From: Phyllobacterium endophyticum
Lineage (GTDB): Bacteria > Pseudomonadota > Alphaproteobacteria > Rhizobiales > Rhizobiaceae
DNA: 64,000 nucleotides
Direction of reading: 5' to 3'
Assembly (NCBI RefSeq): GCF_003010935.1
Contig: NZ_PGGN01000001.1
Location: 806,001 to 870,000 of the forward strand
The notes beneath the pieces were generated by a model. It did not search any database and was not told the DNA's origin. It saw only the letters and a program-made list of their open reading frames with translations. This document shows positions 20,339 to 21,754 of the stretch, piece after piece; the first letter of the stretch is position 1, and the number at the start of each line of letters is the position of its first letter. Made by a program: the position numbers and the translations under genes.

Positions 20339-20476
20339 AATCGGTGGGTGAGGCATTTGCCGCTCCAGTAATCATGGGAGCCGCGCTCGCAAACCCTACA
20401 ATGCTTATCTGCTGCCAGACGGAACGCCGAGTCGTATATCCCCGATGAGTGGCACGACATTCCGCATGACTTTATC

Positions 20477-20504
20477 TTGACTTCTTACGTCAATTTAATA
20501 GCTA
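20477..20504 (+). promoter_or_regulatory. candidate promoter with overlapping palindrome upstream of the colicin M-like gene
   Basis: The 309 bp between dapD and the ATG at 20648 contain no gene that I can support and become very AT-rich after 20470. TTGACT (20477-20482) could be a -35 box with TAGCTA (20499-20504) as a weak -10 at 16 bp. TTGAC-N7-GTCAA (20477-20493) is a palindrome over the -35 and could be an operator. I searched this stretch for the alphaproteobacterial LexA pattern (GTTC or GAAC repeated with a 7-bp gap) and did not find it. Confidence 0.35.
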
Positions 20505-20647
20505 TTGTACGAACGAACTGAAGCAAAAATCCTTTCTTGGCGAGCAGCAGCTCCGCAACGTATTTTTTCGGCACGACCCATTAAGCAAAACTGTTGAAGA
20601 GATGAATTCGATTTCAACATATTTTTCATGACCAAGGAGATTTAGGA

Positions 20648-20752
20648 ATGGGTACCATACATCTGGATACAATTGTTATCAAAGCGTGGGAAGACAGCAG
20701 CCCCGCCAACTGGACAAGAAGAACACGCCTTTGGACATTATCAACGGGGTAA
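20648..20752 (+). CDS. short frame with TonB-box-like start; detached N-terminus of the colicin M-like bacteriocin
   Basis: ATG 20648 is preceded by AAGGAG with 8-base spacing, the best ribosome binding site in this insert. It opens 34 codons (MGTIHLDTIVIKAWEDSS...) and stops at TAA 20750-20752. Residues 7-13, DTIVIKA, resemble TonB boxes such as those of colicins and TonB-dependent receptors. The frame overlaps the catalytic-domain frame from 20686. Inserting one A in the run near 20722 turns TGG ACA AGA AGA into TGG ACA AAG AAG and joins this N-terminus to the downstream frame, giving a 207-residue protein. I therefore treat it as the 5' part of one gene broken by a one-base deletion or a sequence error. 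Confidence 0.6.
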   Translation: MGTIHLDTIVIKAWEDSSPANWTRRTRLWTLSTG

Positions 20753-21270
20753 AAAGTACGCCTGAGAGTGCAAAGACCTATGATAAGGCAGATGCCACTT
20801 TGTCCGGAGGAATTGCGTCGCCCTTCAAGGCCCTGGCGCATTACCTCAAGGGTGATGGCCAAACATTGACCGTCGCTTTGGATCAGGTCGGGTTAAATCT
20901 GACTCCGGATGAGGTCACCCTTGATGAGGTTAACCAACTGAATCAGTACACAGAAGATCAAAATTTTGTCGGCACAAAACACATTATTGTAAACAGATTT
21001 AATCATAATACCGCTGACGACAACGCGATAGCCGCGATGTATCTCGGAAATATTCTATTGAAATTGGAAGGGGATATAACGCGTCACCAAGATGGAACCT
21101 GGAATTTCCAGGGGGAAGTTCGCGCTTGGAACGATACTTATGATTTCAACTCGAGCGATCACCGCGGAATGATGCAAGAAGTGTTCACCAGAACCGTAAA
21201 CGTGTTGCCGGGAACATCCTACGATATAGCTATGCCAGGCTCCATTCCTGTCTCCTGGACGGGTCATTGA
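20686..21270 (+). CDS. colicin M-like lipid II-degrading toxin, catalytic domain (5' end frameshifted)
   Basis: The frame gives up to 194 residues from a GTG that has no real ribosome binding site. Near the C-terminus it reads WNDTYDFNSSDHRG: Asp150, Tyr152, Asp153, His159, Arg160 (bases 21133-21165). The spacing equals that of the known colicin M catalytic residues Asp226, Tyr228, Asp229, His235 and Arg236. A GTWNFQGEV strand precedes and a PGTSYDI segment follows, as expected for the fold. Colicin M cleaves the lipid II undecaprenyl-pyrophosphate bond in the periplasm of target cells. The region is about 47% G+C by hand count against about 60% in dapE, suggesting transfer. The reconstructed protein is shorter than colicin M (271), with little room for a receptor domain. 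Assigned from the motif, coupling to an immunity-like gene and the TonB-box-like start. Confidence 0.72.
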   Translation: MGRQQPRQLDKKNTPLDIINGVKSTPESAKTYDKADATLSGGIASPFKALAHYLKGDGQTLTVALDQVGLNLTPDEVTLDEVNQLNQYTEDQNFVGTKHIIVNRFNHNTADDNAIAAMYLGNILLKLEGDITRHQDGTWNFQGEVRAWNDTYDFNSSDHRGMMQEVFTRTVNVLPGTSYDIAMPGSIPVSWTGH

Positions 21271-21644
21271 TGCGAAAAACGCTGAAGTGGATCCTGGGCA
21301 TCGTTGTGGCGATCCCAGTCGCGCTATTTCTAACAATGTTGTTCGTTGCTTATATCGCCCCTCTACTCAGGGACAGAACAACGCAATGCGGAGACAAGTC
21401 GCGTATCACCGTAAAAGAGGAGATTCTCTCCTTCGCGTCCAAGCCTGGTCGCTTCAAACATATTGATAAAGGTTACGATGCGATCGAACCCAGCGGCGAC
21501 GTTGCTTACTCAAACGTCGCGCGCGTATGGGATCAAGAAGTATTCATAAAGAAAGACGGCAAACGCATAGGAAGAACGGTAGTGATGCTGACCTGCGATG
21601 GGTGGATTGAGTTGTCCACTGACCCTGATTTTAAGCCTGAATAG
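21270..21644 (+). CDS. membrane-anchored small protein, probable immunity protein to the colicin M-like toxin
   Basis: A 124-residue protein whose ATG overlaps the toxin TGA (bases TGATG), so translation is coupled. Residues 7-32 are one strong hydrophobic anchor after a short basic start (MRKTLKW), leaving a soluble C-terminal domain that would face the periplasm. It has exactly two cysteines, Cys40 and Cys109, able to form a disulfide. The colicin M immunity protein Cmi has the same plan: about 117 residues, N-terminal anchor, periplasmic domain with a disulfide. No sequence identity to Cmi could be judged by eye; the role is inferred from position and architecture. Confidence 0.62.
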   Translation: MRKTLKWILGIVVAIPVALFLTMLFVAYIAPLLRDRTTQCGDKSRITVKEEILSFASKPGRFKHIDKGYDAIEPSGDVAYSNVARVWDQEVFIKKDGKRIGRTVVMLTCDGWIELSTDPDFKPE

Positions 21645-21754
21645 CCTGATTATGGAAATAGGCGAAATGCCCCCAATTATCGTGAAAGGATAATGATGAT
21701 GCGACCAGAGAGTCGAGCTTTCAACTGATCAGACGTGCTGAATAACGGATGTTT

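Follow-up and report, generated by a model that had tools for sequence, protein, structure and literature searches.

The question raised by this locus is whether a Phyllobacterium strain encodes a functional colicin M (ColM)-type bacteriocin, or retains an intact immunity gene next to a toxin gene that has been broken. A preliminary description of the window (i.e. the whole 64,000-nucleotide stretch of DNA that was analysed) had proposed a TonB-imported, lipid II-degrading toxin with its immunity protein, located between dapD and dapE in a Rhizobiales-type genome. The assignment of the host agrees with its genus, Phyllobacterium, and the dapD flank was confirmed; the other flank is formed by a panE-like gene, which intervenes between the pair and dapE. 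The features to which the text refers are as follows.

20339..21754, no strand assigned: whole insert between dapD and panE, G+C content 47.4%, the pair being absent here in 18 of 18 other genus genomes
20634..20643, plus strand: ribosome-binding region AAGGAGATTT, ahead of ATG 20648
20648..20752, plus strand: start piece of the broken toxin gene, 34 codons opening with ATG 20648 and closed by TAA 20750
20686..21270, plus strand: catalytic part of the ColM toxin gene, a 194-codon open frame in another frame than the start piece, PF14859 E-value 8.3e-38
21133..21165, plus strand: catalytic signature D-x-Y-D-x5-H-R, from motif search and alignment
21270..21644, plus strand: candidate immunity gene, 124 aa, with an N-terminal hydrophobic anchor and cysteines C40 and C109
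21755-22798, opposite strand to the pair: panE-like gene, with dapE as the next gene beyond

The profile search that the preliminary description had proposed placed the 194-aa ORF (translated as 20686-21267) in the Pfam family Colicin_M (PF14859), with a score of 130.5 bits against a cut-off of 27 and a match to profile positions 109-275 of 281. A phmmer search of the PDB with the same ORF retrieved syringacin M (2e-30) and colicin M (6e-30), as well as pectocins and PaeM. The D-x-Y-D-x5-H-R signature, which was found only once across the six frames of the window, is located near the C-terminus, and its offsets are identical to those of the colicin M catalytic residues D226, Y228, D229, H235 and R236 (accessible text of PMC8469651), as had been claimed for this ORF. 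In alignments to the solved structures, the five residues were positioned opposite those of syringacin M and colicin M. The predicted model of the toxin fragment was poor (mean pLDDT 35.7), and the top 14 rows of a Foldseek search with it were all ColM-type chains at a TM of about 0.3. Placement in the ColM-alpha clade is suggested by approximately 40% sequence identity to colicin M, rather than by a tree. Furthermore, 465 plasmid records matched the ORF at 1e-5, all at less than 60% identity; five of these rows exhibited 35-41% identity and were annotated as colicin M-type genes.

To place the window gene among its relatives, 20 genus genomes were searched with the fragment, of which four matched: the window's own genome, G397, G398 (Phyllobacterium myrsinacearum AN3; locus L006) and G063 (Phyllobacterium sp. 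YR531; locus L007). In both G397 and G398, i.e. in two of the 20 genomes, an intact toxin was observed, with 75% identity over fragment residues 9-194 and a single, long open frame of 280 residues from its ATG (282 from an upstream TTG), compared with 271-279 aa for colicin M chains. The intact AN3 gene is located at L006:5001-5840. With PF14859 scores of 132.7 and 135.5 bits, the intact relatives are members of the Colicin_M family, of which the window gene is a broken member, while YR531 harbours a C-terminal toxin remnant that scored 22.1 bits, under the cut-off. The intact relatives resemble colicin M, syringacin M, pectocins M1 and M2 and PaeM in their C-terminal catalytic domain with the D-x-Y-D-x5-H-R signature. 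They differ from this group in their alphaproteobacterial host and in a receptor part that is unlike the solved ones, and the window copy differs in being broken. Matches of the intact relatives to Pfam and the PDB begin only at residues 105-124.

Comparison with these relatives revealed what has become of the window gene. In the alignment, its catalytic ORF covered residues 95-280 of the intact relative, whereas the start-region frame (20648-20749, translated), which opens with MGTIHLDTIVIKAWED, corresponds to the relative's N-terminus: residues 3-21 of the start piece matched residues 4-22 of the AN3 protein without gaps (13 of 19 identical). Against the whole relative protein, the start piece reached a local score of 68 (with a gapped tail to residue 43), compared with 44 for the best of 2000 shuffles. 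An identical ten bases, AAGGAGATTT, precede the ATG in the window and in both intact relatives. The preliminary description had pointed to a TonB-box-like DTIVIKA at the start of the overlapping upstream frame, and the frame from ATG 20648 to TAA 20750 does open in this manner; the stretch falls in the conserved N-terminal region of the toxin, where the relatives read RPIIIKS or RPIILKA, with ETIVL standing just before, and either stretch would be no more than a candidate TonB box. Nothing in the window copy corresponds to residues 23-94 (72 codons) of the relative, so that about 72 codons are missing; the two surviving pieces occupy different frames, and that of the first is closed by TAA 20750. 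An N-terminal uptake part and a catalytic domain within a single frame were observed in L004 and L005/L006, and not in the window copy. Since the minimal catalytic part of colicin M comprises residues 122-271 (accessible text of PMC8469651), the missing stretch should, by comparison, presumably contain most of the receptor part.

The preliminary description had instead considered the 194-aa product to be a complete, working short toxin with an unusual entry route, as might be suggested by a catalytic frame that is open for 194 codons with all five residues intact. However, no ribosome-binding site is visible ahead of GTG 20686, which is probably not a genuine start, the conserved site serves ATG 20648 in the other frame, and both non-remnant relatives are full length; we therefore consider a short toxin of this kind to be highly improbable. 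It is also very unlikely that the two frames are joined by ribosomal slippage in their 64-base overlap (20686-20749), or that re-initiation occurs, to generate a mini-protein or a bare catalytic domain. Although the overlap exists and the catalytic frame has not gathered any stop, the absence of stops is equally expected after a recent break, the relatives are single-frame genes, and hence no such signal is conserved, and the product would still be devoid of a receptor part. As the break is represented by one assembly, it could in principle be an assembly or sequencing artefact in a strain that has the whole gene; yet base-calling errors do not usually remove some 200 bases from within a contig of 1.69 Mb, here one of 12 in an assembly with a stated completeness of 99.98%, and no second PF14859 match was found in this genome, rendering an artefact most improbable.

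With respect to the age of the break, the intact pair exhibited a dN/dS of 0.105, and comparison of the window fragment with the AN3 gene yielded a pN of 0.154 and a pS of 0.791 (saturated), the figures for the window copy being averages over periods before and after the break. In a neutral simulation, the probability of 194 codons remaining free of stops was 0.38, 0.17 and 0.04 at 0.05, 0.1 and 0.2 substitutions per site, respectively. Consequently, either the loss of the toxin is recent compared with the divergence of the species, or some other reason accounts for the retained frame; a catalytic frame that is still open also fits continued use.

The candidate immunity gene starts at ATG 21270 (or TTG 21267), overlaps the toxin stop by one base and extends with its last codon to 21641. 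The single anchor, two cysteines and coupled position that had been described for it were all recovered: one hydrophobic segment is present at about residues 8-26 (topology from hydropathy only), and the C40/C109 pair is conserved in the window protein and in three of three homologues, that of L007 having one more cysteine at position 4. As the one-base overlap may mean translational coupling, translation of the immunity gene may once have been coupled to that of the toxin, and its expression after the break is thus uncertain. The immunity profile matched four of 19 genus genomes, which are the same four that carry the toxin or its remnant, and two of 317 family genomes (the window's own and G063). 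On the basis of homology, it is plausible that the downstream protein is the membrane-anchored immunity partner.

The immunity protein was without a sequence match to known immunity families in the libraries searched, and the YebF signature (PF13995) gave no match at E <= 1 in the window, L006 and L007 immunity proteins. Its membrane anchor (by hydropathy) and cysteine pair are as in Cmi and other YebF-type immunity proteins; it differs from Cmi, the colicin M immunity protein of E. coli, in the absence of the YebF match, and the structural match to the Cmi fold is weak, with 10% identity and a tie with unrelated designed folds. A plain Foldseek search with the immunity model returned nothing at E <= 0.001, a result that says little about the fold. 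Two Pseudomonas plasmid matches to the immunity protein (E-values of 0.04 and 0.8) lie over annotated secretion-system genes and were dismissed as chance. A further difference concerns gene order, as the window immunity gene is on the same strand as the toxin gene with an overlapping start, whereas most cmi genes run opposite to the toxin, according to the accessible text of PMC5821083. When compared by description, BmiB, PmiB and PeiB have in common with the window protein a single anchor or signal and no YebF signature, and the two cysteines are shared with BmiB and PmiB, which accompany ColM-beta toxins (same text). A broader alternative combines a separate Phyllobacterium ColM branch, with its own receptor part and a sequence-novel immunity protein of Cmi fold and aimed at other rhizobia, with continued use of the shortened window toxin, which would act either as a bare lipid II hydrolase or after joining of its two frames and would not serve as a diffusible bacteriocin; as a whole, this combination is very unlikely.

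The G+C content of the insert was lower than that of all 626 equal-sized stretches taken at 100-base steps across the window, the mean of which is 56.5%. Comparison of the locus across relatives, as had been suggested in the preliminary description, was performed by searching 19 genus genomes for dapD, and the pair was absent from the dapD-panE site in each of the 18 others. In 13 of these 18, dapD and the panE-like gene are immediate neighbours, while in the remaining five (L025-L028 and L031) a gene of 431-432 codons lies between the two; one of the five such genes was tested against Pfam and represents an MFS transporter. No relic of the MFS gene was found at the window's dapD-panE site. 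The dapD-panE interval is a variable site in the genus. In G397 and G398, the pair is located between genes for an Lrp-type regulator and a sigma-54 activator, which adjoin without the pair in G149 and G378. The pair or its remnant was thus observed at three different sites in four genomes, with sister genomes being empty at two of those sites.

In YR531, the toxin remnant and the immunity gene lie between direct repeats of 254 bases (94% alike; L007:4540-4793 and L007:5545-5798), each a copy of the end of an AraC-type gene, an arrangement that would fit integration of a circle through recombination. The remnant begins with a foreign segment (L002:1399-1500) that resembles the first part of a type I secretion ABC transporter and gave no Pfam match at E <= 1. 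The window insert is not flanked by direct repeats of >= 18 bases. Promoter-like and terminator-like counts (two of each, with 2.0 and 1.3 expected, respectively) were no more than chance, and PADLOC gave no match. Two alphaproteobacterial LexA-type patterns had no match in the four loci; an E. coli-type LexA pattern matched once in the window toxin ORF and once in the L006 genes, which was taken as chance.

Beyond the genus, PF14859 matches at E <= 0.001 were obtained in two of 394 family genomes (the window's own, and G063 under the cut-off), two of 397 order genomes (its own, and G1119 at 20.4 bits, under the cut-off), one of 385 class genomes and one of 398 phylum genomes (its own in both). 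The G1119 match falls within a 377-aa ORF that we take to be an efflux-pump fusion protein, at a locus without the catalytic motif, and was rejected as chance. These samples overlap and are thinned, and G397 and G398 surfaced only in the genus search; because neither genome was returned from any of the four samples, they show rarity of the toxin and not its absence. PF14859 had no match in 14 control genomes, the sole positive control being the window's own genome. Scans of genome contigs confirmed none of 24 candidates with the fragment alone and two of 52 (AN3 and YR531) with alignment A1, while a scan of viral contigs confirmed none of 14. The sole match to the intact relative among phage records was a ColM gene from Pseudomonas (cma of phage DVM-2008, 35%). 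Among 40 rows spread over 602 plasmid matches, at least ten from E. coli (e.g. NZ_MF679147.1 and NZ_CP027589.1) match no more than a C-terminal portion of the protein (16-30%); these may be toxin remnants, and no gene is listed there in an incomplete gene table.

The reading that we favour, with a probability of about 0.84, is that of a horizontally acquired ColM bacteriocin and immunity cargo, in which the toxin is broken and the immunity gene intact in the window strain. A colicin M-type bacteriocin gene and its immunity gene would have been transferred horizontally into Phyllobacterium as a small cargo of two genes, which occupies different chromosomal sites in different species. By homology, the intact relative protein would be released, bind an outer-membrane receptor and be imported by TonB, and once in the periplasm it probably cleaves the lipid II carrier, like colicin M; the downstream membrane-anchored protein would protect the producer. 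In the window strain, the toxin gene lacks about 72 codons and its two pieces are out of frame, such that it most likely no longer yields a working toxin; the immunity gene is intact, and the strain is accordingly most likely an immune non-producer. Of the toxin and immunity pair proposed initially, the family, the catalytic domain and a plausible immunity partner therefore stand, while a working short toxin in the window is not supported.

A comparable situation is known from Pseudomonas, in which, according to the accessible text of PMC5277000, some strains carry a conserved immunity gene beside a ColM-type gene that is frameshifted or partly deleted and are possible cheaters, and orphan immunity loci have a low G+C content and many insertion sites. 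The orphan pmiA loci resemble the window in their broken ColM gene, retained immunity, low G+C content and varied sites; they differ in the four-helix PmiA immunity family and in host class. PMC5821083, in its accessible text, covers ColM toxins of gamma- and betaproteobacteria with the immunity types Cmi, PmiA, PeiB, BmiA, BmiB/PmiB and PmiC, and its main text is without rhizobi-, Ochrobactrum, Brucella, Agrobacterium or Mesorhizobium; PMC8469651, in the text accessible, names Pseudomonas, Pectobacterium, Klebsiella and Burkholderia. Among the titles and abstracts found, a scope outside which most subscription journals fall, there was no report of a colicin M-type toxin in Alphaproteobacteria, rhizobia or Phyllobacterium. 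Colicin M superfamily toxin domains do occur in other toxin systems across bacteria (accessible text of PMC12419801, in which this class is not named), which counts against novelty. The novelty lies in the host class and in the sequence of the immunity protein; systems of this kind were already known.

These findings add plant-associated alphaproteobacteria to the gamma- and betaproteobacteria from which lipid II-cutting bacteriocins have been described, and provide a natural example of toxin loss with retention of immunity. The immunity protein may be another type with a single anchor, a possibility relevant to the unsettled mechanism of ColM immunity, and intact, testable toxins are available in Phyllobacterium myrsinacearum AN3 and G397.
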